Source: Clostridia bacterium (GTDB taxonomy: Bacteria > Bacillota > Clostridia > Oscillospirales > Acutalibacteraceae). Taken from it: a stretch of 64,000 nucleotides of DNA. Below are positions 1 to 28,921 of the stretch, piece after piece. Every line of letters starts with the position of its first letter. The first letter of the stretch is position 1. The position numbers were made by a program, and so were the translations under genes. Under the pieces are notes generated by a model, which was given only the letters and a program-made list of their open reading frames with translations, had not been told where the DNA came from and searched no databases. The stretch lies in NCBI GenBank assembly GCA_017397105.1, contig JAFQKF010000006.1, forward strand, positions 1-64,000, read 5' to 3'.

Positions 1-3000
1 GACGGAACCAAGCTTGATCTGAGCATCTACTACGGCAGAAACACTCATACACTCACCTTTGATGCTAACAGCGGTTACTTCAACGGCGATGTAGACGCAA
101 CTGCTCCTATCGTTGAAACTGTATACTACGGCGCAGCAATCTCTGCTCCCGAAGTAGCAAAGACCGGTTACAGCGGCGGCTTCACAGGCGTTGAAGCAAC
201 AATGCCCGATGCAGACACCACTTATACCGCAACCTGGACTGCTAACGAATATACCGTAACATTCGACGCTAACGGCGGTGTTGCAGGTGACGTAAGCACC
301 AAGAAGGTAGCTTTCGATAAGGCTATTACTTCAATCAACATTTCCAATCCCACCAGAACAGGTTATAAGTTCGAAGGCTGGTCACTCACTGCAGGTGATA
401 ACAACACCGTAGATACTGACCTTGGTATCATGGATAACGTAAACGGCAAGACCGTATACGCAGTATGGACCGCTAACGAATACACCGTAACCTACAACGC
501 AAACACAGGCGCATGGCTTGACGGCGAAAACGTTAAGACCGAAGAAGTACCCTTTGATGCACACATCAACGCTTATGCACAGCCCGCTAAGACAGGTTAC
601 ACCTTCGCAGGTTGGGCAACCGCAGCAGATGCAGAGAGCGGCAGCATGGAAGCTGATCTCGGCAAGATGGATGACATCAACGGCAAGACCTTCTACGCAA
701 CATGGACCGCAAATCCCTACACCGCAACCTTCGATGCAAACACCGGCGTATTTGCTGACGGTGCAACAACATCCAAGCAGGTTGACTTCGATGCTGATAT
801 CACAGTTGACGGCATCACCGAACCCACCAAGACCGGTTACACCTTCCTTGGTTGGTCACTTGACAGTGCAGCTACTACCGGCGTTAAGACCGGCTCCGTA
901 GGCAAGATGGACGACGTAAACGGCAAGACTGTTTACGCTGTATGGGCAGTAAATTCCTATACCGCAACCTTCTACAGCAACGGTGCATACTTCACTGAGG
1001 AATCAGTAGAGTACGGCCAGGAAATCTCCGTTCCCGGCAATCCTCTCAACACCGGTTATGACTTCAAGGGTTGGGATGATGACGAAGCTGCAACTGAAGC
1101 ACTTGACAGCCTCGGCAACATGGATGATGTAAATGGCAAGAAGTTCTACGCAGTATGGACTCCTCACGTTTACACCGTAACATGGAACGTAACAGGCGGA
1201 CCTGACGGAACAATCACCAAGACTACTGACGTAGCTTACCAGGCAGAGATTACTCCTCCTGCAATCGATGTTCCCGAAGGATACACCCTTGGCGACTGGA
1301 GACCCGCAGTAGCAGACTCCATGCCCGCACAGGAAGATCTTACTTACACAGCAAGACTTACCATCAACACTTATACCTTCACAGTTGTTGATGACGAAAC
1401 CGAAACTTCAGAAAGCATCACCTACGGCGGTGCTGTTACAGAGCCCACAGAGCTCGGCAAGCTCGGTCACGACTTCATCGGCTGGAAGTGGTACAACGCT
1501 GATACAAACGAAGAAATCGTTAAGGTAACAGCAATGCCCGCTTACAACGTAAAGGTTGTAGCACAGTATAAGGTTAACAAGTATATCGCAAACTTCTATG
1601 TTGGCGATGCACTTCACGCTTACATTTCCGACATTGAATTCGGTACAGCTATCGACTTCACCAAGGTAGGCGATCCTACAAAGACCGGTTACGAGTTCAT
1701 CGGCTGGGGTCTTGAGAAGGAATCAACTCCTGTTGACGAAGCAACCGAAATCATGGATAAGGAAAACAAGACCTACTACGCACAGTGGGAAGCAAATCTA
1801 TACACTGTAACATTCGATGCTAACAACGGTGTCTATGCTGAAGGCGCAGTAACCTCCAAGCAGGTAGCTTACGATTCAGCAATCAACGCAGAGGGTGTCA
1901 CTCTTCCCACCAGAGAAGGTTATACTCACATCGGTTGGGCAACAACCGCAACCGCAACTGCAGCTGAAGACCTTGGCATCATGGATAACATCAACGGCAA
2001 GACCGTATATGCAGTATGGTCCTCCGAAGCTTACGGAGTAATCTTCGATGCTAACGGCGGTGAATATGCAGAAGGTGCAATCTCCTCCAAGAACGTTGCA
2101 TTCGATGCTCCCATTACCGCAGACGGCATCAGCACTCCCACAAGAGAAGGTTATATGTTCAAGGGTTGGTCACTCACAGCAGGTGAGGGCAACACCGTAG
2201 ACGCTGACCTTGGCACAATGAACAGCACATCCGGCAAGACCGTATACGCTGTTTGGGAAATTGAGACCTACACCGTAACATGGGTAATCGGTGATACAAC
2301 TTCCACCACTACCGAAACTTACGGCAAGGCTCTCCAGGTTCCCCCCGTTCCCGAGAAGGTTGGTTACACAGCAAGTGACTGGGCTCCCGAAGTTCCCGCA
2401 GCAATGCCCGATGCTTCCGACGCTCCTCTCATCTTCACAGTAACCTACACCGCAAATTCCTACACCGTAACCTTCGATGCAAACGCAGGTGAATATGCAG
2501 ACGGCGCAACAACCTCCAAGGAAGTTGCATTCGATGCAGGAATCAACGCTGACGGCATCACCGAGCCCACCAGATACGGTTATGAATTCAAGGGCTGGTC
2601 ACTCACAGCCGGCGAAAACAACTCCGTAGATGCTGACCTCGGCATTATGGACGATGTAAACGGCAAGACCGTATACGCTGTATGGAGCGCACGTTCCTTC
2701 ACAGCAACATTCGATGCAAACACAGGCGTATTTGCTGACGATGCAACAACCTCCAAGGAAGTTGTATTCAACACAGCAATCACTGTTGAAGGCATCACCG
2801 AACCCACCAAGGAAGGCTACACCTTCAACGGTTGGGCACTTGACAGCGCAGCTGAAAGCGGCGTTAAGACCGGCGAAGTAGGAACCATGAACAGCGAAGA
2901 CGGCGTAACCGTTTACGCAACATGGGCAATCAACTCCTACAAGGTAACCTTCACATCAGAAGGCAAAGAGCATGCAACCGAAACCGTAGTTTACGGTGAG

Positions 3001-6000: not shown

Positions 6001-7062
6001 GGCTCCTTCTCACGCAGCAGCTTTACAATCACCTACATGGTAGACTATGCTGACGGTGCAGGCTTTGTACAGTACGGCGAAGTAGAAACCAAGAACTATG
6101 GCGATGCTCTCACCGCACCTACACAGCCCACAAAGGACGGCTATGCATTCAGCGGCTGGTACACAGAGGAAACTCTCACCAACGCATTTGAATTCACCAC
6201 CATGGGTGACAGCGATATTACTCTTTACGCTAAGTTCACAATCACCAACAACGCTGTAAACTTCGTTACTCCCGTAAGAATTACAGCAGAAGAAAACTAC
6301 GGTAAGCTTGATTACGCAAACGGCACCACCGAATCGAAAAACGCTGATTACGGCACTGTAGTTTCCACAATCGCTCCCGCAACTGACCCCGAAATCGAGT
6401 ACTACACCTTCAAGGGCTGGTCAACAGCACCTGACGGCGAAGTTATCGATCTCGCAGCAACCACCGTTCCCGAAGGCGGCGCAACTTACTACGCTGTATT
6501 CGACAGAGTAGCAGTTCTCCTTATCCCCAACGCTGACAAGAACTCCACCGCAGTTATCGACAGAGCTGACGGCGGCGACGGCAGCGGAATCGGAACATTC
6601 GATGCTGAAAACTTCTCCGAGAAGACTGCATGGGTTGTTTACGGTCTGAAGTTAGGCTTGAGAAGAGCAACAGACTATTCATCATATCTTGCGGTTCAGG
6701 GCGACGGTAAGTTTGAAGTTATCGCAAACGAAGGCGGATTGTTCAGCACAGGTGCACGAATAGTCGTTACTGACAAAGTAACAGGCGAAGTGGTTGAAGA
6801 ATTCTGGGTAGTAGTTTTTGGTGATATCAATGGTGACGGCAGAATTACAAATCTTGATACTTCGGCTTGCGTTAACGAAGTTGACAGAATTACAAAGTGG
6901 TCAATAACAAGAACAAGAGTTTACTACAAGTATGTTGCAGCAGATGTCAATAACGACCTTGGAAACTCGGACGGTCGTATCACTACACTTGATACTACTG
7001 TAATCAGAAATGCAGCAGACAGAGTTGTTACAATTGATCAGACCACTGGCGGTTGGGCATAA
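1..7062 (+). CDS. Giant InlB B-repeat surface protein with C-terminal dockerin-like module (5' end outside window)
   Basis: The reading frame is open from base 1, so the gene starts upstream and the ATG at 202 is internal. The visible part (about 2350 residues) has at least 28 InlB B-type repeats of 60-80 residues, each with a GYxFxGW core and ending in YAVW or a variant. These small beta-grasp-like repeats are known from listerial internalins and many gut Firmicute adhesins. After the repeats comes a roughly 90-residue module (LLIPNAD to VVVFGDIN), then from base 6820 a dockerin-like pair of calcium loops: GDINGDGRITNLD and, with a short insert, AADVNNDLGNSDGRITTLD. Both loops keep most Asp/Asn ligand positions. 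There is no LPxTG motif, so attachment may be noncovalent through the dockerin-like end (inference). The same C-terminal architecture recurs in the next two genes. The family call is firm; an adhesive role is inferred. Confidence 0.9.
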   Translation, partial: DGTKLDLSIYYGRNTHTLTFDANSGYFNGDVDATAPIVETVYYGAAISAPEVAKTGYSGGFTGVEATMPDADTTYTATWTANEYTVTFDANGGVAGDVSTKKVAFDKAITSINISNPTRTGYKFEGWSLTAGDNNTVDTDLGIMDNVNGKTVYAVWTANEYTVTYNANTGAWLDGENVKTEEVPFDAHINAYAQPAKTGYTFAGWATAADAESGSMEADLGKMDDINGKTFYATWTANPYTATFDANTGVFADGATTSKQVDFDADITVDGITEPTKTGYTFLGWSLDSAATTGVKTGSVGKMDDVNGKTVYAVWAVNSYTATFYSNGAYFTEESVEYGQEISVPGNPLNTGYDFKGWDDDEAATEALDSLGNMDDVNGKKFYAVWTPHVYTVTWNVTGGPDGTITKTTDVAYQAEITPPAIDVPEGYTLGDWRPAVADSMPAQEDLTYTARLTINTYTFTVVDDETETSESITYGGAVTEPTELGKLGHDFIGWKWYNADTNEEIVKVTAMPAYNVKVVAQYKVNKYIANFYVGDALHAYISDIEFGTAIDFTKVGDPTKTGYEFIGWGLEKESTPVDEATEIMDKENKTYYAQWEANLYTVTFDANNGVYAEGAVTSKQVAYDSAINAEGVTLPTREGYTHIGWATTATATAAEDLGIMDNINGKTVYAVWSSEAYGVIFDANGGEYAEGAISSKNVAFDAPITADGISTPTREGYMFKGWSLTAGEGNTVDADLGTMNSTSGKTVYAVWEIETYTVTWVIGDTTSTTTETYGKALQVPPVPEKVGYTASDWAPEVPAAMPDASDAPLIFTVTYTANSYTVTFDANAGEYADGATTSKEVAFDAGINADGITEPTRYGYEFKGWSLTAGENNSVDADLGIMDDVNGKTVYAVWSARSFTATFDANTGVFADDATTSKEVVFNTAITVEGITEPTKEGYTFNGWALDSAAESGVKTGEVGTMNSEDGVTVYATWAINSYKVTFTSEGKEHATETVVYGEEIEAPALPEKEGYTFMGWSTDADAETGSTEAVLGTMGAAPVEYFATWKINNYTVTFVIPGKDVAYHTTTADYGKEVTYPEVPGEADLPAGKSFNAWNPAAIASMPAENVTVTAVLDDIVYNVNLWVVNDAGETVKSETLTGILNEKITIPAVSSVIRKGYTATGWYTANDIVVPEGEYTVQGDADLYMHYTANGVEVTFYMDKEMTDSIGTTTATYEQALQLTVNEPSKTGYKFAGWYMDGVGEIAFDENGNGPVVTTTDPISVYALWTANEYTVTYVNGTETTEEKVAYDANIVAPAEPTKTGYTFAGWATDSTATSGSKEAVLGKMDDVNGKTFYATWTPISVDVIFNAHGGKWSDDSTTKTEGFAYDSDITAPAEIPVKEGHTLLGWSTDPLATEKEDLGTVDFTAAKTFYAVWTINSYTASFDSNGGTWEDGTTVKTDSYVFGDTVLKYNDVHGEVPVRTGYTFKGWAETADAEAALGVLGKMPASDKTFYAVWDANSYTVTWVVDGKTTEEPYDFGATINVPENPIKEGHRFVKWTPAVPATMPAENITIVALFETNVYDVIYVVDGKEVSRLSNEYGTEIATDISNVYTAPAGYVLSGWYSDAGYTTEFAYGATVPAEPTTLYAYTTAISYSVIFDANNGAFADGSITYIDTVEYLGEITAPADPTREGYTFTGWSPAVGAVLDVPANKTYTATWTALTYDITYYDGEEVYQIYEDVEYGTELFVPADPYRDGVTFVGWTQVKGGTEAENLTGATMPNKDVVYYAIFTTDVHTITYVIDGTTSETEEYPFGAAVTVPAPEKVGYTFSGWTWTYVDGEGATQTTTEPATMPAYDLTATGTFAKNTYTVTYMVDYADGNGYVQYGEVDSYLFEAAVDAVREDISKTGYTFSGWTWEKAEDSSAITAPSLMPAYDIIVRGTLTVNTYDISYKVDYADGKGFVDYGTADSYAYGADVTVKDVPVQDGYAFSGWTFTNADTGEEIAAPTTMPAYDVNVTGSFSRSSFTITYMVDYADGAGFVQYGEVETKNYGDALTAPTQPTKDGYAFSGWYTEETLTNAFEFTTMGDSDITLYAKFTITNNAVNFVTPVRITAEENYGKLDYANGTTESKNADYGTVVSTIAPATDPEIEYYTFKGWSTAPDGEVIDLAATTVPEGGATYYAVFDRVAVLLIPNADKNSTAVIDRADGGDGSGIGTFDAENFSEKTAWVVYGLKLGLRRATDYSSYLAVQGDGKFEVIANEGGLFSTGARIVVTDKVTGEVVEEFWVVVFGDINGDGRITNLDTSACVNEVDRITKWSITRTRVYYKYVAADVNNDLGNSDGRITTLDTTVIRNAADRVVTIDQTTGGWA

Positions 7063-7078
7063 TCAAAATTAATTCTCA

Positions 7079-7105
7079 CGGCGGGGGAGTGCTCCTCCTC
7101 CGCCG
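7079..7105 (+). other. Intergenic hairpin without U-tract between the first two giant genes
   Basis: An 11-bp stem (7079-7089 with 7095-7105, one G-U pair, 5-nt loop) lies 16 bases after the stop codon. The following bases (AGGGAAACC) have no T run, so it is not a standard intrinsic terminator. A sequence-related hairpin follows the next giant gene. It could protect or process a polycistronic mRNA. Confidence 0.6.
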
Positions 7106-7204
7106 AGGGAAACCTTCTGAATTAAGGGTAATATTTGCAGTATAAACTGCTGCAATTGATTGCTATACATTTAAAAGCAAAACTTTTAGGAAGGAGTCAT
7201 GTGC

Positions 7205-10200
7205 ATGACAAAAGTAAAAAGATCCCTTGCGGTCTTGCTTGCCTTGATAATGGTGCTTACCATTGCTCCTATCAACTCCTTTGCGTTATCAAGTGATATT
7301 TTCCCGGAAGCTTCACTTGGTGACGGAAACGAATCATCATTGGTAATGACTCCTGTAATTTACAGGAACGTTAATGCCGGTGTTGATGGAGCCGAAGAAG
7401 ATTGGCAGCCCACAACCAAGGTAAAACCCGGCGAAGAAGTACGTGTAAGAATTACAATGAAAACTGACTTCCTTGCGGGCGATTCAGACCTTATTTTTGC
7501 GTTTGACAATAGGATTTTTACCGGCGATTTAACATTAGGTACAACAAACACCGAAACGTTGTCTGTAAATACTGCCGTTGGCAGTTTTGCAGCAAATTAT
7601 TTGTCCGATAACAAGTCACAGTATGCAAGCTATCGAGTTACAGCAATGCCCGTTTGGGATGACTTAGCTTATTATTATAACTGGACAATGTTGGACGAAA
7701 ATGGAGATGTTGTAGGAGTACCTTACATCGACAACTATACTTATGAGAACTATGATTGGCTTACAGTTAAGCTGACATTTAACAGCAGTGAAGCGTATGA
7801 GTGGACCGGCAAAGAGTGGATGTTTGAATTCCCCCTTACCGTTCTTGATAAGCCTGTTGTTACTCCTCTCATTGCTGAGGGTGAAACAGAGGCAAACATC
7901 GCTGCAAATTATTCCGAAGAGGATATCAATGTAGACCCCGCATTTATTACTGTTGTTGATGCTTATTCAGCAGCAGCATATACATATGATGATCCGGAGT
8001 ACGGAGAGTCTTATTATGACTATGAAATGATGGGTTATGCTGGTGTATCCAAAGATGTTGATGGTGATTTACATCAGTTCTTTGTTGGTACTTGGTTGCC
8101 TCAGGTTACCGGTTACGATGCATACGTAACAACCAACGGCAGAGCAATCTTTGATGCTAACGGCGGTTATTACGAAGGCGCAGAAGATGACGAAGATACT
8201 GAGGATATCAACGAAAAAACTCAGGCAGTCAAGGAAGGCTACTACGGCGCTACCAAGACTATCGGCACGAAGGATGATGAAACAACTCTCATCGCTCCTA
8301 CACCCGTACACGAAAAAGGTTACAGATTCCTCGGTTGGGGTACAACCAAAACCGCAACCGCAGCAGATAAGGTTTCCTCTGTTTCTTTCGATTTCGAGGA
8401 TACAACCTACTATGCAATCTGGGAATACTATAACTACACATTCAATGTTAACGGCGGTTCATGGGATGCAGCAGGCACCGATACCGCTGACAGAGTTATC
8501 GACGGTTCCGCAGGCAAGACTGTAGCTTATACTGTTGACGGCACAGAAGTTAAGCCCGTTAAGAACGGCTGTGATTTCGTAGGCTGGGCAACCACATCTG
8601 ACGCTACCTCCGCTAACGCAACCGTAACTCCCGCAGAAAACACAACCTTCTATGCAGTCTATAAGTCACAAGAAGGTACTCCCTATACTGTTAAAACCTA
8701 CACAATGGGTCTCGACGGTACTTATCCCGAAACTCCCTTAACCACTTCCGGTTCAGGCACTTTCGGTGATGACGTTGACGTAACTCCCGAGCTTGGAACA
8801 GGCTTCTATGCTGATACAGCTCACGAAGGTTACAAAGCAACAGGCGTTATCGGCACAGATAATGAATTCGTTATCTACGTTGCCCGTGAAGAATACACAG
8901 TAACCTTCGCTCCTGCAGGCGGTTATCTTGACGGCGATAAGGCCGCAACCACTGACAAGCCGGTTAAGAAGTTCTTTGGCAACGTAATCGACGTTCCCAC
9001 AGTAGCAAGAGACGGCTACACAGGCGGCTGGCCTGAGGGAACAGGTACTACAGTAACAGTTGACGGCAACAAGACCATCACTGCTGTATGGACCGAATCT
9101 ACCACCACTCTCGGCACAATCAGCGCTATCTACACAGATACAGACGGCGTTGAGCAGACCGTAACCGTTCTTGATAAGGAAGAGCTTGCAGCTCTCGTAG
9201 CTGACCTTGGCTACACTCCCAAGACCGGCAGCACCCTCTACATCGCAGCAACTGAGCCTGCAACCATGGCTGAAGGCGATGTATTTATCCCCTTCGAAAA
9301 GCTTCCCGCAGCAGCTATCCACTATAAAGTAGATGCAGATAACACAGCAAACAACATTGCTGTTGAAATCGCTGCTGACGGTTCAACTTCCGCAACTCTT
9401 GCTTATGCTCCCGTAGATTACACCGTAACCTACGAGCTCGGCGCTGACGATGCAACAATCGCTGCTAAGACAGAAGATTTCGCATACGGCACCGAAATCA
9501 ACACTGATGACCTTGCTAAGCCCGAAAGAACGGGTTACACCTTCCTCGGCTGGGCAACCTCCGCTGAAAATGCAGAGGCAGGCACACTTGCTGATACAGC
9601 AGAAGTAAGAGGCAATATGAGCCTTTACGCTGTATGGAAGGCCGATAAGGCAAACGTTGGTGACGTAACCGGTACTTATACCGACGAAGACGGCAACGAA
9701 AAGGAAATTGAAATCCTCACTAAGGAAGAAATTGAAGATATCATCGGCGAAGACGGCGGCACAAGCGATGGCGACATCGTTATCGGCCCCGAGAAGCCTG
9801 ATGATTTCGACGAAGAAAACGACATCTTCATTGATACAGACGATATCTTCCCCACCAAAGACGGCTATATCATTGATCCCGATGCTGAACTTCCCATCGT
9901 AATCCCCGTAACTCCCGGTAAAGACACTGAGATTAATATCCCCGTAGTTCTCGCAACCTACACAGTAACCTACAACGCAAACGCTGAAAATGTTACTGTT
10001 ACTCCTGCAACTGCAGACGTTAAGCACGGCGATACTATCGTTAAGACAAGTGCAACACCCGCTGACAGAGCAGGCTACACCTTCCTCGGCTGGGCAGAGA
10101 CTGCTGATGCTACCGCAGCTGCAGACATCACCGTAACAGGCGATATCGAAGTTTACGCTGTATGGCAGGCTGACAAGGCAAACGTTGGCGGCATCGACGG

Positions 10201-20000: not shown

Positions 20001-20223
20001 TGCTGTTAAGACCTCTGATACTACAGAGATGAAAAACGAAATCGGCTACATTACCTCATGGAGTGTTGACGGATTCGATGATTTCGACAGTGCACGCTTC
20101 ATGGCAGGCGATATCGTAAGAGATAACAGGATTTTAATGTCTGACGTTACACGCACAAAAGAATATATAGGTTATCTTCTTGATATCGATCAGGTAACAA
20201 GTGGATGGATTTCTTACATCTGA
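14026..20223 (+). CDS. Giant InlB B-repeat protein with two N-terminal cohesin-like domains and a degenerate dockerin-like end
   Basis: This encodes 2065 residues. AGGAGG (14011-14016) lies 9 bases before the ATG, and the signal peptide (MTKVKRLVALLLSLVMIL) parallels that of the preceding gene. Two related beta domains occur at about residues 30-240 and 325-545. Each has a VxxGExVKxxV opening, an FLFFYDSDFF-like strand and a closing LPSTVL/FESTVL-like strand. About 16 InlB B-repeats follow, with MucBP-like inserts (YTVEIYKMGTDGEY and relatives). The C-terminus has the shared pre-dockerin module and calcium-loop-like segments from residue about 1986. Here GDVNGDAAVKTSD and GDIVRDNRILMSD have lost several ligand residues, so calcium binding may be weaker than in the two upstream proteins. 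A strong terminator follows, so this is probably the last gene of a three-gene unit. Confidence 0.9.
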   Translation: MTKVKRLVALLLSLVMILGTFSVMGYAYSVSEDTNNSFVLDINILKQINGEWKESDYVVPGEEVKVQVDISTDFHAGSGEFLFFYDSDFFTDSLEAGSSVLTNKYTLPPHSFSSMITTESAGNNRLENALVSSQLLTQAEADAYNYIFVAVDGTETLNKQYSGTMFEFDLKVKDDATGSGDFKVFESTVLSKENQDGIFNISKGAEGEKTQYHMALWKEVNKTINNDQVAVYNNPSTVTFEAGEGTFAASKKTLSFTGEANTVFEDLPANPTRGGYTFGGWATVADPTEADVVANPASYPEGGATYYAYWVSNAGAAGTNFAINTKFFREVDGEWVETEKVKRGETVKARVYLATDYYTNGGEMILFYDKAFFNDEYSVGSNVLTVNSNPESFAAINGVEGLFYTDASASKAESSLISGGHITADYAEDHNFIHIQYTFNGDTESAVNAIAFDDEQYLVDTEVDNDLWFAEFTFTVADSAAGEGDIVMLPSTVLAPGNQNTAIVNIPKGTENGIAKNIQGMWLWEATPITSSQPVRITSTVSFDANGGVFPGYVDDESTTEIDETVMYVIEDDIGSAIDARNIPTPEKSGSTFLGWVDASLTDPTQADIVEIPSEIDYEDKAFKALWATTVTVSFETYGGTEIADRVVAAGTDFEEVADPEKTGHRFVGWSLTGGTDNGVSPVITLPDKYPETDAVYYAIWEAKTYTIDYYVTDTKGNTTKVASPVIEFEKTIPTTVPTYQVPAGFELNGWYWDAALTDKVDADETMPAKNIVLYGKLNALKIDAIFNANEGAWEDGTTTKNVPTELFDTIQAPADPSREDFIFTGWNPAVGVMDNANGKTFTATWTPVEHTISYYVEGEEYQVYEGLVTGDDLEVPADPDVEGKKFLGWAETENGTPVNPLTGTIDGKDYEFYAIFEDIVYTIDYISEGATIDTDEYLFGEEVTVIADPAYSNEFYSFVEWEWKAYNDETGLFDIEVEEPATMPSNNLQATAVFEPNSYEVVFDANTGTINGEETYVTETVYGEAIDGPDSDPVKPGYTFDGWTPEFVDGTTTLITAGATYEAVWTADDQTVTYDPNGGELDIDGLKYTTATPYVETYKTDADVTALAAEPTLTGYDFGGWEYTYEDENGETKTLAALPSKMPAYGITATAIWNPRNDTKYTVETYIMGTDGEYDKTTPNNTKEYAGTTGAEINLVATPLDGYFFDEDESKMSGVIAPDGSLVLKIFYGRNPVEITWDAAEGYFDGDETKVDDIVEDTYFGATVVPPQVDRDGYTFTGWDPVVNATAPNEEKITYTATWEINEYDISYVVEDVTTRVDSYDFGEDVTVAADPSKTGHKFDGWVWTYVDENGDTVVTTEPATMPAYDLTATAAFSPNKYKASFYTDKDTTVEENLYEENEVDFGSSVTAPAGTPSKEGYTFGGWVDADGNEVDFSTETMDSDKGQNYFASWDAVDCTVTWDANNGIFDDDNTKTTDTTTVAFDDVISARTPAPTRGGYTFAGWALEADAKTPLTDLGTMDDVNGKTFYAVWAPSTGLGYTVEIYKMGTDGEYSDTPTETIEHNDGVTGEARSVDYTAPDGFVLDEDHEGYADSGIIPVAPDKLVLKIYLERNAYNLIACIVEEDGTETEYANEEYLYGETVEALSDPTAPEGYVFKGWSTVKGDASAIAALPATMPANDYVVYAIFEKDTFTVTFDSGDGYFNNNPDDKEETQDVEFEGEIQLPVEPTLPGYEFKGWSTDGTEAGIVPESEWPQEMGPEDVTYTAVWAPKSFTVTYYVPVRDADESSSTYGKLKADTWEVYGEVKTLEAGAPFTDAIVSGTPEVLYYEFCCWQDEEGNEVTEWPETMPTKNLKYYAHFERLPVYLIPMDGSTTVIDRGEGYYGKAGAYTTELTGELTRNVTQTYDQYDAASGNVWYVYGLEFYLFEDILRDKYCDVHGDGYYTVTPYNADFGSEIGRVVVGTGSKITVYDKVTNEIVEEFYVVVFGDVNGDAAVKTSDTTEMKNEIGYITSWSVDGFDDFDSARFMAGDIVRDNRILMSDVTRTKEYIGYLLDIDQVTSGWISYI

Positions 20224-20239
20224 TTTAATTTAACCCGCG

Positions 20240-20270: not shown

Positions 20271-20281
20271 CTTTTTTCAAG

Positions 20282-20310
20282 TTGATTTAAATTGCATAAT
20301 ATGTTAAAGT
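20282..20310 (+). promoter_or_regulatory. Candidate promoter for the ABC-F/HAD/luxS genes
   Basis: TTGATT (20282-20287), a 17-bp spacer and TAAAGT (20305-20310) lie 24 bases before the ABC-F start. The match to the vegetative consensus is moderate. Confidence 0.4.
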
Positions 20311-20334
20311 TATAAAAAAAAACGGAGCGATAAA

Positions 20335-21951
20335 ATGATAGCAGCAATTGACGTTGACCTTCAGTACAGCGGCAGAGCCTTGTTCAGGCACGCCGACGTT
20401 ACCTTCACCAGAGGAAACTGCTACGGGCTTATTGGTGCCAACGGAGCGGGTAAATCAACTTTTCTTAAAATCCTTGCAGGTGAGCTTGAGCCTACGGGCG
20501 GCAGAGTAAGCGTTACCCCGGGCGAGCGTATTTCCGTGCTCAGGCAGGACCATTTCGCATTTGATGAATATACGGTTGTAAAAACCGTGCTTTTGGGCAA
20601 CAAAAAGCTCTGCGAAATCATGGATGCCAAGGAGGAGCTCTATTCTAAAGAGGAGTTTACCGAAGAGGACGGAATGAGAATCAGCGAGCTTGAGGAAGAG
20701 TTTGCCGAGATGGACGGATGGAGCGCAGAGAGTGATGCTCAGATACTGTTGAACGGCCTTGGTGTTACAAACGAGTGGCATGAGAGACTTATGAGCGAGC
20801 TTCCCAACGATCTCAAGGTCAAGGTGTTGCTTGCGCAGGCACTTTTCGGCTCGCCTGATATTCTTCTTATGGACGAGCCTACCAACCACCTTGATATTGA
20901 TGCAATTATATGGCTTGAGGATTTTTTACTCGATTTAGAGAGTACAGTCATTGTAGTGTCGCATGACCGTCACTTCCTCAATAAAGTCTGCACTCACACG
21001 GTTGATATTGATTTCGGCAAAATCACCGTTTATGCAGGCAACTACGATTTCTGGTACGAATATACTCAGATGCGTCAGCGTCAGCTCAGGGAGCAGAATA
21101 AGAAGGATGAGGCAAAGGCTAAAGAACTCAAGGAGTTCATTGCCAGATTCAGCGCCAACGCCTCCAAATCAAAGCAGGCTACAAGCCGTAAGAAGCTGCT
21201 TGAAAGCCTTGATTTAAGTGAACTTCCCGTTTCCTCAAGGCGCTTTCCTTACGTGGGCTTCAAGCCTGACAGAGAGGTGGGCAACGACGTGCTCACCGTC
21301 AGCGGCATCTCAAAAACAGTAGGTGGAAGAAAGGTTCTGGATAACGTCAGCTTTACCGTTCTTCCCCGCGAAAAGGTTGCTTTTGTGGGCACGGATGCCG
21401 TGGCAAAAACCACTCTGTTTAAAATTCTGGCAGGCGAAACAGAGCCTGATGAAGGTACCGTAAAATGGGGAGTAACAACAAGCACCTCGTATTTTCCGTC
21501 AGACAATTCAGCGTATTTTGACGGCTGTGAGGATTCTCTCATTGACTGGCTTCGCAGTTATTCTGACCTTGTGTTTGAAAGCGACGTGCGAAGCTGGCTT
21601 GGCAGAATGATGTTCTCGGGCGATGAAGCGCTGAAAAAAGCAAAGGTGCTTTCTGGCGGCGAAAGAGTGCGCTGCATGCTGTGCAAGATGATGCTTTCGG
21701 GTGCCAACGTTCTTATTTTTGACGAACCCACCAATCATCTTGACCTTGAATCAATAGCTTCCCTTAATGATGGAATTATAAAATATCCCGAAACCGTTCT
21801 GTTTACCTCGCACGACCATCAGTTTGTGCAGACCATTGCAGACAGAGTCATTGACGTTACAACGGGTAATCATTACGATAAGAAAATAACCTTTGATGAA
21901 TATCTTGCAGAGCTTGCCGAGAAGAGGGAAGCGGAAAAGGCAGGTAAATAA
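20335..21951 (+). CDS. ABC-F family ATPase (YbiT/YkpA-like)
   Basis: This is a 538-residue cytoplasmic protein with two ABC ATPase domains in one chain and no membrane segment, as in ABC-F proteins that act on ribosomes. The first Walker A is GANGAGKST (residues 34-42), and each half has a MDEPTNHLD or FDEPTNHLD Walker B segment. The linker between the domains is charged (RQRQLREQNKKDEAKAKELKEF). Two sites are degenerate. The first domain has SELPNDLKVK where LSGGxxxR is expected, while the second keeps LSGGERVR. The second Walker A reads GTDAVAKTT (residues 352-360), with Ala for the last conserved Gly. Such asymmetry suggests the two sites hydrolyse ATP unequally. It begins a closely spaced run with the HAD and luxS genes. 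The physiological role (translation factor or antibiotic protection) cannot be told from sequence. Confidence 0.9.
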   Translation: MIAAIDVDLQYSGRALFRHADVTFTRGNCYGLIGANGAGKSTFLKILAGELEPTGGRVSVTPGERISVLRQDHFAFDEYTVVKTVLLGNKKLCEIMDAKEELYSKEEFTEEDGMRISELEEEFAEMDGWSAESDAQILLNGLGVTNEWHERLMSELPNDLKVKVLLAQALFGSPDILLMDEPTNHLDIDAIIWLEDFLLDLESTVIVVSHDRHFLNKVCTHTVDIDFGKITVYAGNYDFWYEYTQMRQRQLREQNKKDEAKAKELKEFIARFSANASKSKQATSRKKLLESLDLSELPVSSRRFPYVGFKPDREVGNDVLTVSGISKTVGGRKVLDNVSFTVLPREKVAFVGTDAVAKTTLFKILAGETEPDEGTVKWGVTTSTSYFPSDNSAYFDGCEDSLIDWLRSYSDLVFESDVRSWLGRMMFSGDEALKKAKVLSGGERVRCMLCKMMLSGANVLIFDEPTNHLDLESIASLNDGIIKYPETVLFTSHDHQFVQTIADRVIDVTTGNHYDKKITFDEYLAELAEKREAEKAGK

Positions 21952-21953
21952 CA

Positions 21954-22781
21954 GTGGCAAAAACTCTGTATATCAGTGACCTTGACGGCACCCTGCTCAA
22001 CCGCAATGCCGAGCTTTCGCCCTTTGCGGTTGAAGGTTTAAGAGCGCTGTGCAGCAAGGGGATTTATTTGAGCGTTGCAACCGCAAGAACCGCCGCAACC
22101 GTAGCGGCAATGCTTGCGCCCGTAGGAGTCAACACTCCCGTTGTGCTTATGAACGGGGTGTGCACCTATGATTTGTCAAAGGAAGAATACGTAAGCGTAG
22201 AATATATAAGCTCTTTTGCCAAATCTCAGGCTATGCAGATTATTGCCGACCACGGTCTGTCGGGTTTCTGGTACTGCATAGAAGACGGAAAGCTTTCCAC
22301 TTACTATGAAAATACCGATTCGCCCGATGCGAAGCTGTTTATTGAGGAGCGGCAGAGAAAATACAATAAGCCCTTTTTCAAGGTTGATTCATTTTCAAGT
22401 CTTTCAGAAAGAGGTCTGGTATATTATTCGATTTCAGACGTAACGGCAAAGCTTGAGCCTGCGGCAAGTCAGCTTAAAGAAGTGCAGGGGCTCAGGGTGG
22501 AATATTACCGTGACGTTTATAATCCCCGTCACAGCTATCTCGAGCTGTGCTCATCAAATGCTTCAAAGAAAAACGCCGTCAGCAATATCAGGAAAACGTA
22601 CGGCTTTGAAAAAGCCGTGGGCTTCGGCGATAATTATAACGATATTCCGCTGCTTGAGGCGTGCGATGAATTTTATGCTGTTTCAAATGCGGTGGAGGAG
22701 CTTAAAAAGCGTTCAACCGCGGTCATCGGTGCAAATACCGGGGATGCCGTGGTGCGGTGGCTTCTTGAAAATGCAGAATAG
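21954..22781 (+). CDS. Cof-type HAD-superfamily phosphatase
   Basis: This encodes 275 residues. It starts with GTG two bases after the ABC-F stop codon, which suggests translational coupling. HAD motif I is SDLDGTLL near the N-terminus, with the catalytic Asp pair, and motif IV is GFGDNYNDIPLL near residue 222. The long middle region fits the type IIB cap of Cof/YidA proteins, which dephosphorylate sugar phosphates, flavin phosphates and similar small molecules in the cytoplasm. The substrate cannot be assigned. Confidence 0.88.
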   Translation: MAKTLYISDLDGTLLNRNAELSPFAVEGLRALCSKGIYLSVATARTAATVAAMLAPVGVNTPVVLMNGVCTYDLSKEEYVSVEYISSFAKSQAMQIIADHGLSGFWYCIEDGKLSTYYENTDSPDAKLFIEERQRKYNKPFFKVDSFSSLSERGLVYYSISDVTAKLEPAASQLKEVQGLRVEYYRDVYNPRHSYLELCSSNASKKNAVSNIRKTYGFEKAVGFGDNYNDIPLLEACDEFYAVSNAVEELKKRSTAVIGANTGDAVVRWLLENAE

Positions 22782-22790
22782 GAGAGTATT

Positions 22791-23243
22791 ATGGAAAGAA
22801 TAACAAGCTTTAACGTGGATCATGATTTATTAGAGCCCGGCATTTACGTTTCAAGAATTGACGGTGATATCACAACCTACGATTTAAGAACTCGCAAGCC
22901 CAATGCAGGCAGCTTTATGGATACCACAACCGCACATACCGTTGAGCATATGTTTGCAACTTTTGTGCGTAATTCTGAAATAAAAGATAGCGTTATTTAT
23001 TTCGGACCCATGGGATGCCGTACGGGTTTTTATCTGCTAGTCAGAAATGCCGATAATGAAAAGGTGCTCGAAATAACCCGTTCAATCCTTAAAAGCATCG
23101 TGGAGTATGAAGGGGAGGTATTCGGGGCATCGCAGAAGGAATGCGGCAACTGGCTTGATCTGGAGCTCGGCTGTGCAAAGGAAGAATGCGCCCGTTACCT
23201 TAAAATTCTCGAAAAGAAGCAAACGTTCAAGTATAATTCTTGA
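22791..23243 (+). CDS. luxS: S-ribosylhomocysteine lyase LuxS
   Basis: This 150-residue protein has the whole LuxS signature: HTVEH (His49, Glu52, His53), the PMGCRTGFY loop with the catalytic Cys76, and KECGNW with the zinc-binding Cys118. The enzyme cleaves S-ribosylhomocysteine to homocysteine and DPD, the precursor of autoinducer-2, within the activated methyl cycle. It follows the HAD gene by 9 bases and is probably co-transcribed with it. Pfs and other cycle genes are not in the window. Its place between two giant adhesin genes invites a link to community behaviour, but nothing in the sequence proves one. Confidence 0.95.
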   Translation: MERITSFNVDHDLLEPGIYVSRIDGDITTYDLRTRKPNAGSFMDTTTAHTVEHMFATFVRNSEIKDSVIYFGPMGCRTGFYLLVRNADNEKVLEITRSILKSIVEYEGEVFGASQKECGNWLDLELGCAKEECARYLKILEKKQTFKYNS

Positions 23244-23391
23244 TAAGAATAATTAACAAAAAGTTCACAAATTATACAAGATTTATTAATATATTCACAC
23301 AAGCAGTAACAAAATGAGTAAATATAATTTTGATATCAGATAATGGTAATTATAAATGTGAACACTTCTTTTTTATTTTCTCTTTCCCCAT

Positions 23392-23431
23392 ATATCGGCG
23401 GACGTTTCGGCGTCCGCCGATATCCCTTTTT
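23392..23431 (+). terminator. Intrinsic terminator after luxS
   Basis: A perfect 13-bp stem (23392-23404 with 23411-23423) with a 6-nt loop is followed by CCC and five T. It ends the ABC-F/HAD/luxS unit 150 bases after the luxS stop; the AT-rich stretch in between shows nothing else. Confidence 0.9.
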
Positions 23432-23440
23432 ACAGAAGAA

Positions 23441-23472
23441 ATTCATGTAAAGCACTATGGCTTTACATGAAT
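23441..23472. promoter_or_regulatory. 12-bp perfect inverted repeat in the luxS-adhesin gap
   Basis: ATTCATGTAAAG (23441-23452) and its exact complement CTTTACATGAAT (23461-23472) flank 8 bases. No T run follows directly on either strand. It lies upstream of the promoter of the wall-anchored giant gene and could be a repressor or activator site. This function is inferred. Confidence 0.45.
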
Positions 23473-23575
23473 GTTTTGTTTACAGAATACGGCAACTTTT
23501 CCTTATATATTATAATTAGTAAAAAAATAATTATAAAATATCCCAAAAAATGTGCTTGTTTTGGCAATTAAGCAC

Positions 23576-23604
23576 TTGCAAAATCAAACAGCTTGTGGTA
23601 AAAT
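23576..23604 (+). promoter_or_regulatory. Sigma-A-type promoter of the wall-anchored giant gene
   Basis: TTGCAA (23576-23581), a 17-bp spacer and TAAAAT (23599-23604) lie 61 bases before the ATG. A 6-bp inverted repeat, GTGCTT (23552-23557) with AAGCAC (23570-23575), ends right before the -35 box and may be an operator. Confidence 0.65.
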
Positions 23605-23665
23605 GACTTGTAAAATACGCTAACTATGTATGTGTCGTAAAGCGTAAAGTTCAAGGAGGTTTCTT

Positions 23666-26600
23666 ATGACTACTTTAAAGAAAGCGCTTGCGCTTCTGGT
23701 TGCCTTTATTATGGCATTCAGTTGCGTATCGGTAATGGCATCTGCTGATGAACCGGATACTCTTACCATCAAGACTTCCGGCCTTGCCAACCCCACTGAG
23801 GATACAGACGTGGCAAAGGCTAAAAGAGGCAGCACTGTTAATGTGTATATTTCAATCGGTACCAATTACGATACCCGCGACGGCGGCGAGCTTATCTTTG
23901 CTTATAACAGAGATTTTGCTATTTATCAGCATCAGGCGAGACATACTCTCAACAATAATAACCCGGCGGTTAAAAATGGATATGTTGACTATATTGGTAC
24001 AGATAGTGAGCTCTCAGTTGGTCACTATAAAAGGGATAGTGAAGGCAACAAGACCGACGAGTGGAATCACGGCTTTGTTGCTACCAGACTGAACAAGCAG
24101 GGGCTACTTACAGACAGCGATCTGGAACAGTACGGATTCTTTATTGTTCAGCTTAATGATGTGCTTGGCGCCGGCAAGCGTCAGTATGATGGCAGCACCT
24201 GGCTTTTTGCTGCTGAGTTTGAAATCAGTAAGGATGCGGACCCCAACATGATTGGCGAGATGCTCAAGGTTCAGGTTCTTCCTTCAACTATTCAGTCTCC
24301 CACCAATCAGCAGGGTATAGTAAACATTCCAAAGTACATGCCCAGTTCCAACGCTGTTAACGGTATGCAGAATTTGCCCAACCACGTTGTTTCCCCCACA
24401 GCAGCCGGCATCCAGGTAATCAACGACGTTTATTTCTTCGAGGGCGATAAGGGTGAGTTTGATTCCAAGGTAGAGCTTGACGATGCAACCGGCGCTTACA
24501 AGGCAGTAAGCTACGTTGGCGAAGAGGTTGCGTTCTCCGCTCTCAACGTTCCCACACCCGTAGGCAAGCAGGACGTTCCTGATCCTGATGACAATGATAC
24601 CCTCAAGGATTATGTCTTCAGCAACTGGCTTCCTGCTGACTCAAGCGGAAAGGCTACAAGTTCTGAGCCTGCTACCTCAGTAACTGTTCCTGCAGGTGAT
24701 CCTGCTTATTTCGTAGCAAACTACACAGAAGGCGACACATACAAAATCACATATAAAGTTGTAGACGAAAACGGTAACGCGATTGATGAAGAAGAATCAT
24801 CAGCAAGCTATGCAGAAGGCGATGAAATCGCAGCAACTGATCTTCCTGCAGGTGAAGGCTATGAGTACAGCGATTGGACCTATACTAAGGAAGACGGAAC
24901 TGTAATTGATACTCTTCCCGATGAAATGCCCGCATATAACATCATTGCTACCACCACCAAGACACCTATTGACTGCTATGTAACCTTTGATGCAAACGGC
25001 GGTACCGCAGGCGCTAAGTCTGAAAAGACTGTTAAGTATGGCGCTCCCATCACATCTGACGGTATTGACGTTCCCACCAGAACCGGTTATAAGCATATCG
25101 GTTGGTCAGTTAACGCAGGCGAGAACAACAGCGTAACTTCTCTTGGTACTATGGACAATGTTCAGGGCAAAACCGTTTATGCTGTATGGCAGATAAAGAC
25201 CTACACAGTAACATGGCAGGTTGGTGACAAAACTTACACAACCGAAGCTACTTACGGTCAGGAAATCCCTGAGCCTCCCGTTTCCGACGAACTCGGCTAT
25301 GAACTCAGCGATTGGTCACCCGAAGTTCCCAAGGCAATGCCTGATAAGGAAGACCTCAAGTTTACAGCAACTCAGAATCCCAAGGATTATTATGTAACCT
25401 TCGATGCAAACGACGGTGTTTTTTCAGATGATACCACTTCAAAGAAAGTAGCATCAACGTTCGATCAGAAGATCAATCTTCCCGAAAAGCCCGCAAATGA
25501 AGGTCACACCTTCCTCGGCTGGTCACTTCAGTCTAATGCGAAGACAGGCTCCGAGAATCTCGGCGAGCTCAAAACAACCGAGCCTCTTACCTACTACGCA
25601 ATCTGGGAAGCAAAGACCTATACCGTAATATGGACCATCGACGGTGAAATCACCACTACAACAGAAACTTACGGCGAAGCTCTTCATCCTCCCGTAATCC
25701 CCAATAAGCCCGGCTATGATTCCGGCGCTTGGACTCCCGGTGTTCCCGGAACAATGCCCGATGTTGAAGATCTCGAATTCAAATCAGTTTCCACTCCTAA
25801 AGTTTACAACATTACCTTTGATGCAAACGACGGTGCTTTTTCAGATAACACTACTTCAAAGGGAGTAGAATCAACCTTCGGTCAGAAGATCAATCTTCCC
25901 GAAGAGCCCGCGAATGAAGGACATACTTTCCTCGGCTGGGCACTTGAGTCCAATTCAAAGGTAGGCTCCAAGAATCTCGGCGAGCTTAAAACAACCGAGC
26001 CTCTTACCTATTATGCTGTTTGGTCTCCCAACAATAACGCGGTAAGAATTGAGTATTACTCCAAGGGAACAGACGGAGAATACGTCAGCACCGGAACGGG
26101 AACCACAAGCGGAGAAACCGGAACAACCGTTAACATCACAAAGCAGGCAACAGATGAAACTCCCGAAGGCTTTGTTCTTGATACAACCATGAGTAAACTT
26201 TCGGACACTGTTCCCGCAACAGGAACTCTTACTCTTAAGGTTTACTATGACCGCAACAAGTATAACGTAACATTTGATCCCAATGGCGGTTACCTCGACG
26301 GTGATACAAGCAAAGAAGCAGAAGTAGTAGAGAACCTTTACTTTGGTGCAACAATAACTTCCCATACTGCCAACAAGGAAGGCTGTGAGGAAGGCACATG
26401 GACTGTAACCAATACCAATACAGGCGCAACAATTACAGAAATCCCCACCAAGGTTCCTGCGTATAACATCACATTCACAGCAAACTACGAAGCAATAAAG
26501 ACCACCGTAACCTTCGATCCCAACGGCGGTAACTTCCCTGAAGGCGCAACAACCTCTAAGACTCTTGAATACAACGATGCAATCAATGCAGACGGCATTA

Positions 26601-28921
26601 CAACTCCCGTGCTTGAAGGTTATAAGCACATCGGCTGGGCAAAGACTGCTGATGCAAAGACTCCCGAAGACCTTGGTACAGTTAAGGATCAGCCTATAAC
26701 CGTATATGCGGTTTGGGAAGCCAACAAGTATAAGGTAATCTTCGATGCAAATAACGGCTCATTCCCCGAAGGCGCAACATCTTCCAAGGACGTTCCTTAC
26801 GGTGAAAGGATTGATGCTGATTCAATCACCGAGCCCGGCAGAACAGGCTATAAGTTCCTTGGTTGGTCAACCGATGCAAACGCAAAGATACCCGGTGACC
26901 TCGGAACAATGGGCAGCGGCGCTAAGACTGTTTACGCAGTTTGGGAGCTTCAGGAGTACGTAGCAAACTTCGATCCCAACGGCGGAACATTTGAAGAAGG
27001 CGCTCAGACAACAAAGAACGTTAAGTACGGTAAGGAAATCACAACTGACGGTATCGCAACTCCCACTGCTCCTGCAGGTAAGGAGTTTGCAGGCTGGGCT
27101 CTCAGCAAGAACGCAACCCAGGCTGATGCTTCTCTCGGCAACATGACTGAAGAAGGCGTAACCGTTTACGCAGTATGGAAGACCAAGAGCTATCCCGCAA
27201 CCTTTGATGCAAACGGCGGTAAGTTTGACGGTGATGCAACAACCGAGATAAAGTACGTTGAATACGGCACTGAAATCAACTCCGATTCAATTTCAACTCC
27301 TGCAAACGAAGGATTTGAACTTCTCGGCTGGTCAACCAATAAAGATGCAACAACTCCCGATACTTCTCTCGGCAACATGACCGAAAACGGCGCAACTGTT
27401 TACGCTGTATGGAAGGGAATCGAGAAAACCGTAACCTTCGATGCAAACGGCGGTGAATTCGCTGACGGCGCTACAACAGAAAAGACTTATGCTTACGACA
27501 AAGAAATGGATGTTGCAGGCGTATCCGTTCCCGAGAAGGAAGGCTACGAATTCCTCGGCTGGTCATTTGATAAGGATGCAGAAACAGCTGATACCGATAA
27601 GGGCAGCGGCTCTCTCGGCAAGGTAACCGATAAGGAAGCCAAAACGGCTTATGCAGTCTGGAAGGCAGTAGACGTTGACGTAACGTTTGATGCAAACGGC
27701 GGTGAATTCGCTGACGGTTCTGACAAGAAGGATGCAACAGCTCCTTACGGCAGCGATCCTTCCGAAGTATATCCCACCGAAAATCCCACCAAGCCCGGTA
27801 AGTCCTTCATTGGTTGGGTTGATGAAAACGGCAACACTGTTGATAAGATTGACGATGTTGACGGACTCAAGCTCTTTGCAAAATGGGGCGACGTTAAGTA
27901 CACCGTAACCTATTATTATGACAGAGATAATGATGGCGAGCCTGACGAGTACAAGACTCAGGAATATAATTACGGCGATACAATCACCCTTCCTGCAAAC
28001 CCCGATATCGACGGTTTCGAATTCGTAGGTTGGGAATGGTATACTTCCAACAATGAGGAATCCAAGATTTCCAAGCCCGAAACAATGCCCGAGCAGAACC
28101 TCATTGTTCTTGCAACATGGGAAGCAAAGACTTACAAAGTAACCTTTACTCTTAACGGCGGTAAGTGGTCTGACGGTTCAACTGCAGACAAGGTAATCGA
28201 AGTTAAGTTCGGCGATGAAATTGCCCGTCCCGAAACTCCTGAGAAGTCTGAGGAAGAACTCTTCAGCCATTGGAAGCAGACCAAGGGTAAGGACGCTGAA
28301 GTAGGCGGCAAGATGCCTGCGAGCGACGTAACCTTTGAAGCTCAGTGGGGCGATCCCAAGGAATACACCATCACTTACGTAATCTACGGCGATATCATTG
28401 AAACATCAGGTTATTATAAAGGCGAAACAATCTTCGAAAAGGAAGATCCCACAAGATTCGGCTTCACCTTCAAGGGCTGGAAGTGGTACAATTCAGACGG
28501 TGATCACATCGCTGAACCCAGCGAAATGCCCGGTGAAGACCTCAGAGCAGAGGCACAGTGGGAGTTCGGATTTGACGAAGTTCCCGAAATCGACCTTCCC
28601 AATATCGATATCAATACCCTCGTTATTGATCCTCAGCTCTACGTTGACCTCGTAGATGCTATCATCGGTGTTCTTCCCGACAAGCTTCCCGAAATTGATT
28701 TCGGCGGTGACGGTGAAGGCGAAGGCGAAACAACCGATAAGCCCGACGGCGACGGTAAGGATGACGGCAAGGATGACGGTAAGGGCAACGAAGGCTCAAC
28801 TAACGTTCCTTCAGTAGATATTCCCGACACCGGCTCAGCAGCAGGCATTGCAGTATTTGCAATCATATCCGGCGCAGCAGCAACAGCATACGTTATCAAG
28901 AGAAAAAAGGATAACGACTAA
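23666..28921 (+). CDS. Giant InlB B-repeat protein with N-terminal cohesin-like domain and sortase-type wall anchor
   Basis: This encodes 1751 residues; AAGGAGG (23653-23659) sits 6 bases before the ATG. A signal peptide (MTTLKKALALLVAFIMAFS) is followed by a beta domain at residues about 30-235. It has a VAKAKRGSTVNVYISI opening and an ELIFAYNRDF strand, the same layout as the N-terminal domains of the two preceding giant proteins. About 16 InlB B-repeats and one MucBP-like insert fill residues about 270-1650. An Asp/Gly/Lys-rich linker leads to IPDTG (1719-1723), a hydrophobic stretch and a KRKKDND tail, a typical sortase cell-wall sorting signal with Ile in place of Leu. It has no dockerin-like end. 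It may be the wall-bound partner of the dockerin-ended proteins (inference). No sortase gene is in the window. The gene has its own promoter and terminator. Confidence 0.92.
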   Translation: MTTLKKALALLVAFIMAFSCVSVMASADEPDTLTIKTSGLANPTEDTDVAKAKRGSTVNVYISIGTNYDTRDGGELIFAYNRDFAIYQHQARHTLNNNNPAVKNGYVDYIGTDSELSVGHYKRDSEGNKTDEWNHGFVATRLNKQGLLTDSDLEQYGFFIVQLNDVLGAGKRQYDGSTWLFAAEFEISKDADPNMIGEMLKVQVLPSTIQSPTNQQGIVNIPKYMPSSNAVNGMQNLPNHVVSPTAAGIQVINDVYFFEGDKGEFDSKVELDDATGAYKAVSYVGEEVAFSALNVPTPVGKQDVPDPDDNDTLKDYVFSNWLPADSSGKATSSEPATSVTVPAGDPAYFVANYTEGDTYKITYKVVDENGNAIDEEESSASYAEGDEIAATDLPAGEGYEYSDWTYTKEDGTVIDTLPDEMPAYNIIATTTKTPIDCYVTFDANGGTAGAKSEKTVKYGAPITSDGIDVPTRTGYKHIGWSVNAGENNSVTSLGTMDNVQGKTVYAVWQIKTYTVTWQVGDKTYTTEATYGQEIPEPPVSDELGYELSDWSPEVPKAMPDKEDLKFTATQNPKDYYVTFDANDGVFSDDTTSKKVASTFDQKINLPEKPANEGHTFLGWSLQSNAKTGSENLGELKTTEPLTYYAIWEAKTYTVIWTIDGEITTTTETYGEALHPPVIPNKPGYDSGAWTPGVPGTMPDVEDLEFKSVSTPKVYNITFDANDGAFSDNTTSKGVESTFGQKINLPEEPANEGHTFLGWALESNSKVGSKNLGELKTTEPLTYYAVWSPNNNAVRIEYYSKGTDGEYVSTGTGTTSGETGTTVNITKQATDETPEGFVLDTTMSKLSDTVPATGTLTLKVYYDRNKYNVTFDPNGGYLDGDTSKEAEVVENLYFGATITSHTANKEGCEEGTWTVTNTNTGATITEIPTKVPAYNITFTANYEAIKTTVTFDPNGGNFPEGATTSKTLEYNDAINADGITTPVLEGYKHIGWAKTADAKTPEDLGTVKDQPITVYAVWEANKYKVIFDANNGSFPEGATSSKDVPYGERIDADSITEPGRTGYKFLGWSTDANAKIPGDLGTMGSGAKTVYAVWELQEYVANFDPNGGTFEEGAQTTKNVKYGKEITTDGIATPTAPAGKEFAGWALSKNATQADASLGNMTEEGVTVYAVWKTKSYPATFDANGGKFDGDATTEIKYVEYGTEINSDSISTPANEGFELLGWSTNKDATTPDTSLGNMTENGATVYAVWKGIEKTVTFDANGGEFADGATTEKTYAYDKEMDVAGVSVPEKEGYEFLGWSFDKDAETADTDKGSGSLGKVTDKEAKTAYAVWKAVDVDVTFDANGGEFADGSDKKDATAPYGSDPSEVYPTENPTKPGKSFIGWVDENGNTVDKIDDVDGLKLFAKWGDVKYTVTYYYDRDNDGEPDEYKTQEYNYGDTITLPANPDIDGFEFVGWEWYTSNNEESKISKPETMPEQNLIVLATWEAKTYKVTFTLNGGKWSDGSTADKVIEVKFGDEIARPETPEKSEEELFSHWKQTKGKDAEVGGKMPASDVTFEAQWGDPKEYTITYVIYGDIIETSGYYKGETIFEKEDPTRFGFTFKGWKWYNSDGDHIAEPSEMPGEDLRAEAQWEFGFDEVPEIDLPNIDINTLVIDPQLYVDLVDAIIGVLPDKLPEIDFGGDGEGEGETTDKPDGDGKDDGKDDGKGNEGSTNVPSVDIPDTGSAAGIAVFAIISGAAATAYVIKRKKDND

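Follow-up and report, generated by a model that had tools for sequence, protein, structure and literature searches.

What could be built from giant repeat proteins of which three end in dockerin-like modules, while two of these three and a fourth protein, which ends in a sortase-type tail, begin with related cohesin-like domains? Cohesin–dockerin pairs are best known as joints of enzyme complexes. Comparing the sequences of this locus and its relatives, we put at roughly two in three the probability that it encodes a non-catalytic, calcium-dependent, wall-anchored cohesin–dockerin surface scaffold.

Layout of the locus

The window, the whole stretch of DNA analysed here, covers the opening 64 kb of contig C37, which is 92 kb long and belongs to a host genome of 1.85 Mb rated 76% complete. 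Its four giant genes, together with the modules given for them below, lie on the + strand. Gene A (1–7062) shows by its ORF and Pfam matches a giant InlB-repeat protein of at least 2353 aa with an open 5′ end; because the window starts where the contig starts, gene A is truncated 5′ and its N-terminus falls outside the sequence, which corrects the sequence-only reading made earlier. Gene B (7199–13879; 2226 aa) carries one N-terminal cohesin-like domain, InlB repeats and an end made of an X-module plus dockerin (X-dockerin); the start at 7205 chosen earlier is the second ATG within the ORF that opens at 7199. Gene C (14026–20223; 2065 aa) has two cohesin-like domains ahead of its InlB repeats and X-dockerin end, and gene 4 (23666–28921; 1751 aa), the candidate anchor, combines one cohesin-like domain, InlB repeats and a sortase-type tail. 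Pfam recognises 28, 12, 15 and 15 InlB/Flg_new repeat stretches in proteins 1, 2, 3 and 4 (the products of genes A, B, C and 4), respectively.

Three ordinary genes (20335–23243, +), for an ABC-F-like ATPase, a HAD hydrolase and LuxS, separate genes C and 4. Gene 4 is followed by P0008 (28985–29857, +), which has no Pfam family; in 7 further fetched loci, a relative of P0008 comes directly after the gene with the sortase tail. Further 3′ of the anchor gene (29877–34823) come genes for a peptidoglycan-binding protein that matches SpoIID and for a GerA germination protein, with an alpha-N-acetylglucosaminidase gene on the opposite strand. In 13 of 20 related loci (L045–L064), the contig end falls inside the dockerin-ended gene upstream of the cohesin-like genes, as if repeats in that gene broke the assembly. 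The 16 titled loci returned by a search with the N-terminal domain are MAGs labelled Clostridia (one of them Clostridiaceae), 15 of which come from goat, sheep, deer or water-buffalo gut.

Dockerin-like ends and cohesin-like heads

The ends of genes A (6457–7056), B (13346–13870) and C (19555–20208) each consist of an X-module, common to them all, followed by two dockerin-like calcium loops. Their Dockerin_1 scores are 23.1, 26.9 and 20.0 bits, so that proteins 1 and 2 pass the Pfam cut-off for this family (PF00404, 22.9 bits) and protein 3 misses it; Dockerin_1 was not listed for protein 4 in the Pfam scan. The gene A end also scores 192 bits with our X-dockerin alignment A5, of which it is a member. 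A profile of 35 X-dockerin ends retrieves solved dockerins (best E 4.6e-7), and matches the scaffoldin dockerin 4uyp at E 5.3e-7. On Pfam scores and this profile match, the C-terminal module can be called a dockerin, as judged by sequence; the proposal that three giant InlB-repeat proteins end in dockerin-like calcium loops agrees with both the ORFs and the Dockerin_1 scores.

The tail of gene 4 (28820–28918) reads as a sorting signal: the motif IPDTG, a hydrophobic stretch and the basic tail KRKKDND, in keeping with the usual pattern of an LPxTG-like motif, hydrophobic stretch and basic tail. The NCBIfam model Rumino_NPXTG (NF033846) gives it 20.0 bits, below its cut-off of 23.5. Sequence and Pfam listing thus bear out that such a tail occurs only in the fourth protein, where no dockerin was found. 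Sortase (PF04203), a class C form of which would mark a sortase-built pilus, had 0 matches in the sequence of the host genome, 76% complete; 22 of the 24 other same-genus genomes searched have 1–7 each. Elsewhere in the host genome, L107:8002-11958 (G000:C41), cut 5′ by the contig end, encodes an InlB protein that closes in an amphipathic tail; this tail resembles the one on a protein of L113 that carries the N-terminal domain (51% across the final 116 aa), and the L107 protein is possibly a second anchor.

The N-terminal domain (hereafter N-domain; about 220 aa) is found once in gene B (7325–8179; BLAST relatedness, and contained in our alignment A4), twice in gene C (14104–14772 and 14950–15678) and once in the anchor protein (23729–24466; BLAST relatedness). 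In BLAST within a 4-sequence set, the two gene C copies are 34% identical (E 1.7e-27), and the domain of protein 3 is matched by that of protein 4 (E 7e-10) and, across 78 residues, by that of protein 2 (E 7e-11), which agrees with the earlier view that proteins 2, 3 (twice) and 4 start with a related domain.

That this domain is cohesin-like is a claim on which Pfam and profile comparison differ. With Pfam Cohesin (PF00963; cut-off 24.1 bits), the first gene C domain reaches 18.6 bits (E 0.0019), the best match of the host genome, and the second 11.4 and 15.2 bits in two scans, all below the cut-off; the N-domains of genes B and 4 have no match. Among 41 N-domains, Cohesin is listed for 6, with a best E of 0.0018 that implies a score below the cut-off, and is the Pfam family matching most of them, the other 35 having no listed Cohesin match. 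A first hhalign comparison of the 41 N-domains with 31 Pfam cohesins of relatives gave a probability of 45.7 (E 2e-4, 40 columns). With 95 N-domains against the same 31 cohesins, the probability was 86.7 (E 4.4e-6 as a single comparison; score 39.4), and the alignment covered 47 columns at default settings or, under a relaxed threshold, 119 colinear ones; the controls scored far lower, at most 18.5 for 200 column-shuffled decoys, 11.2 for a reversed control and 15.2 for the X-module. The alignment of the 31 cohesins retrieves solved cohesins, and the cohesin profile matches 8 of 80 N-domain proteins, always within the N-domain; no cohesin was found among the PDB sequences searched with N-domain profiles. 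Two sortase-tailed intermediates exceed the cohesin cut-off only when taken with neighbours and are unlisted by hmmscan of the whole proteins. We take the N-domain as a probable divergent cohesin and not a member of PF00963: profile comparison upholds the likeness, and within the window the Pfam cut-off is not reached.

A cohesin over the cut-off is also present in the genus. L090:176-5616 (G015) has a Pfam Cohesin match of 51.1 bits on InlB repeats with an amphipathic tail, and similar genes occur in L089 and L091. Next to the L090 gene lies one for an InlB protein with a faint dockerin likeness at its end (12 bits by our own profile; no Pfam Dockerin listed), and the pair may represent this scheme again on a smaller scale.

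Plug segments, tails and co-occurrence across the genus

In known dockerins, the recognition residues lie in the end of the calcium loop and the helix that follows. We therefore compared 16-residue segments, each covering the end of one calcium loop and the following helix, within and between genomes. With all classes of dockerin lumped, similarity within versus between genomes was 0.352 versus 0.252 for segment 1 (0 of 1000 shuffles) and 0.274 versus 0.219 for segment 2 (5 of 1000), a result that survives thinning, and 0.403 versus 0.399 for the X-module (357 of 1000). Between B and C dockerins (11 genomes), the segments gave 0.534 versus 0.283 and 0.386 versus 0.244 (0 of 2000 shuffles each) and the X-module 0.433 versus 0.410 (95 of 2000), with classes assigned by position and 7 of the 15 ‘B’ ends, contig-cut, assigned solely as lying directly upstream of a two-domain gene. 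For segment 1, A–B similarity was 0.273 versus 0.268 (694 of 2000; 8 genomes, the window’s included) and A–C similarity 0.260 versus 0.242 (793 of 2000). As gene A’s segment 1 is unlike B’s while B and C agree, there seem to be at least two dockerin codes; this would fit a partner that B and C have in common and a different one for A.

These comparisons bear on the suggestion that any dockerin docks on any N-domain, B chaining, C branching and the anchor rooting an open-ended head-to-tail fibre. Such a fibre would make use of the socket and plug that genes B and C each carry on one chain, and within the host genome the first segments of all three dockerins do read D-T-[TS], while the second segment of A resembles B’s at 9 of 16 residues. 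A compact version might be seen in G245, from another genus of the family (L173, L174), where a 372-aa protein joins an N-domain, an X-module and a dockerin-like tail (35.4 bits with the X-dockerin alignment, no match by the dockerin part alone). The disagreement of A with B (8 genomes) and the agreement of B with C (11 genomes) nevertheless speak against free docking, as does the higher-order scaffoldin assembly of R. flavefaciens, which uses discrete interactions (PMC5934362). We regard docking of this indiscriminate kind as rather unlikely; an unlimited head-to-tail fibre is possible, and would need the B dockerin to dock on B-type sockets. Another N-domain protein of G245 carries FIVAR repeats.

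Correlation across genomes was also considered as a guide to partners. Dockerin similarity still correlates with N-domain similarity once the X-module is controlled for (partial r 0.50; 0 of 500), and the same is true of X-module similarity once the dockerin is controlled for (partial r 0.59); since the X-module tracks the N-domain as well as the dockerin does, the similarity test does not discriminate partners. By N-domain class, no dockerin partner stood out, and the gene A dockerin tracked none. A segment scan of the N-domain gave a slightly higher agreement within genomes than between them overall (0.234 versus 0.220; 1 of 500 shuffles) and, uncorrected, a few local hits among 39 segment windows, from which we draw nothing.

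Architecture was read from 100 fetched regions, picked from match lists with the later-appearing, weaker N-domain matches left out. At a threshold of at least 40 bits by iterated profile, these held 80 N-domain proteins from 30 genomes, of which 12 are cut C-terminally and 68 have readable tails. Dockerins end 27 of the 68 (two are cut within the dockerin by region borders, with fuller copies from another fetch), 22 have sortase-like tails (20 [LIVM]PxTG and 2 NPxTG, with the usual tail after), 16 have short amphipathic or WWQ-type ends, by a pattern defined after the tails were seen, 3 have neither, and none has both a dockerin and an anchoring tail. The split between dockerin-ended proteins and anchored, dockerin-less partners that the sequence-only reading noticed in one locus is thus a genus-wide rule (0 of 68 with both). 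In two relatives (L053, L055), two-domain heads like gene C’s are joined to a sortase tail, and in a tree the second N-domain of gene C groups with those of two sortase-tailed proteins (99/95), the first copy weakly so (80/58). From these heads and their grouping, docking and anchoring tails seem interchangeable on one head.

A head shared in this way, and the tail division itself, would also suit separate adhesins, in which the N-domain is a cohesin-fold ligand binder, the dockerin hangs the adhesin on another, anchored cohesin, and sortase and amphipathic tails are alternative modes of display. Candidates for that other cohesin exist in some relatives, where small proteins whose tails are amphipathic or resemble membrane segments carry Pfam-like cohesins. 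The distribution of sockets and plugs was examined in this light. A Pfam dockerin match is present in all 37 genomes of the genus, yet Pfam Cohesin at E ≤ 0.001 is absent from 25, the host’s included, and in these 25 any adhesin-holding socket must be unrecognised or unassembled. Twenty of the 25 have the N-domain as their sole recognised socket. The other five (G004, G007, G018, G034 and G035) have dockerins, yet at the thresholds applied they showed no socket of either kind, Pfam Cohesin or N-domain; they may thus have a socket that escapes recognition, which would favour separate adhesins.

Strong X-dockerins, defined as at least 70 bits with A5 (a threshold picked after viewing the list), mostly co-occur with the N-domain (E ≤ 1e-5 with A4), which counts against separate adhesins. 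Of the 37 genomes, 27 have both, 1 (G035) the X-dockerin only, 4 the N-domain only and 5 neither (Fisher p 0.0016, a test that ignores phylogeny and genome incompleteness). Other thresholds gave p 0.0003–0.06, and since G018 has an N-domain by iterated profile, recounting it so gave p 0.008 at 70 bits and 0.13 at 50. Order-wide, among the best candidates (at most 11 each) of 295 genomes, the N-domain was found in 2 (the host genome and G245), whereas the X-dockerin alignment matched 59 at E ≤ 1e-5; at 70 bits or more, again only the host genome and G245 remained, followed by G273 with 67 bits. The earlier coupling of C-terminal module and N-domain therefore holds for strong X-dockerins, with 27 of 28 genus genomes having the N-domain and G035 as the exception, and is looser for weaker dockerins, which are common in genomes that lack it. 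Overall we consider separate adhesins unlikely. The exception, G035 (86% complete), has seven X-dockerin copies and no N-domain that we could find; some of its small, secreted-looking proteins consist of two or three tandem X-dockerins (L188:8121-9806, L189:6291-8676).

A cellulosome-like arrangement, with sockets that take up dockerin-bearing enzymes from other loci of the genome, was weighed against the domain content. Of the 80 N-domain proteins, 48 were scanned with Pfam, which lists a catalytic domain for none of them, be they dockerin-tailed (22; only InlB repeats, dockerin, MucBP and Muc_B2) or anchored (26; only InlB repeats, Big_3, Muc_B2, MucBP, SHIRT, SH3_5 and a weak AMPK1_CBM), and the idea that InlB repeats stand in the place of catalytic enzymes gains from this. 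The host genome (76% complete) does encode two dockerin-like proteins beyond the locus, but none of the five found in it, these two included, has a catalytic Pfam domain. In G245, one X-dockerin protein (L173, L174 loci) carries a phosphoesterase domain. Dockerin_1 matches number 1–9 per genome in this genus, against 19–64 in 4 of the 23 other-family genomes searched. Enzyme recruitment is accordingly improbable in our estimate. Proteins of about 1550–1990 aa with a C-terminal dockerin-like end, for which Pfam lists almost nothing besides in the four scanned, occur repeatedly across the genus (L177:6586-11277 and L178:5327-10456, both of G000, as well as L115, L164 and others) and are possible cargo.

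Least probable of all, and very improbable, is that the dockerin ends are partnerless relics or intramolecular calcium clasps: some calcium loops are degenerate in relatives and G035 has its tandem X-dockerins without N-domains, but B and C segments agree within a genome far beyond the X-module, which is not expected of relics.

A proposed surface scaffold and its known counterparts

For the anchored, non-catalytic scaffold that we favour, what we infer is that the modules bind, that calcium is needed for it, which ends pair, that sortase does the anchoring and that the structure serves adhesion. The N-domains would act as divergent cohesin sockets, and the X-module with its pair of calcium loops as dockerin plugs. 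InlB repeats would form long shafts that hold the sockets off the wall, to which some relatives add mucin-binding repeats. The protein encoded at 23666, with its socket and sortase-type tail, would be the wall-fixed base. The B and C dockerins would have one kind of socket in common, in the simplest case the anchor’s, or would bind each other’s; with one further socket supplied by gene B and two by gene C, this could give an extended, possibly branched, non-covalent array, while the gene A product would dock by a code of its own. Comparison with relatives points to an ordered assembly that uses two dockerin codes. A role toward mucin or a host surface is hinted at by the MucBP and Muc_B2 repeats of some relatives, of which the window has none. 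The fullest version of this picture, a non-covalent, calcium-held fibre or branched mesh made only of giant cohesin- and dockerin-ended repeat proteins, with a genome-specific plug code and serving adhesion and not digestion, would be a new kind of surface appendage, and we consider it less likely than not. If the scaffold reading is right, the same cohesin–dockerin joint would be used for surface structure, with repeat shafts replacing enzymes; the locus would then supply natural plug codes, specific to each genome, on which docking could be tested, and a candidate apparatus for adhesion in Clostridia of the ruminant gut.

Several described systems share parts of this layout. In R. flavefaciens, the C-terminal dockerin of a scaffoldin docks on ScaE, a sortase-anchored protein with a single cohesin (PMC2930009, PMC11557425), so that ScaA/ScaB/ScaC with ScaE resemble the locus in having a single-cohesin anchored base and dockerin-tailed partners. 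That array serves dockerin-bearing enzymes, whereas the locus has giant repeat shafts in which no catalytic domain was found, and its N-domain lies under the Pfam Cohesin cut-off. The R. flavefaciens authors do suggest a possible part for some dockerins in organising the cell surface. The mucinolysome of Limousia, likewise from a gut bacterium, has an N-terminal cohesin on a sortase-anchored scaffoldin, the dockerins of cSca1 and cSca2 being predicted to dock on LPxTG-anchored cSca5; it displays mucin-degrading enzymes, and ‘InlB’ is absent from the main text (PMC12997984). The R. bromii amylosome has sortase-tailed scaffoldins (Sca2, Sca5) and, in Amy4, a cohesin and a dockerin on one chain, both likenesses to the locus, as well as calcium-dependent cell binding and MucBP modules on dockerin proteins (PMC5814915, PMC9112005); unlike the locus, it is described there as a starch-enzyme complex. 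Listeria internalins with InlB B-repeats share the use of InlB/Flg_new repeats as a shaft, whereas the locus has no Pfam-listed leucine-rich repeats and joins its repeats to cohesin-like and dockerin ends.

By sequence, the locus would fit the layout of cellulosome, amylosome and mucinolysome, with a cohesin-bearing scaffoldin whose dockerin is predicted to reach an anchored base, although its sockets are not Pfam cohesins. Sortase-anchored cohesin bases with dockerin-tailed scaffoldins are already known from R. flavefaciens, R. bromii and Limousia. In the literature searched, mainly open-access, we recognised no description of cohesin–dockerin ends on InlB-repeat proteins, and within it the combination of InlB shafts, an array lacking recognised enzyme domains and a plug code that B and C share in a genome-specific way appears new. 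The N-domain further points to a divergent cohesin-like family below Pfam’s cut-off, which also appears new and which, among the genomes searched, is confined to this genus and one other of the family.
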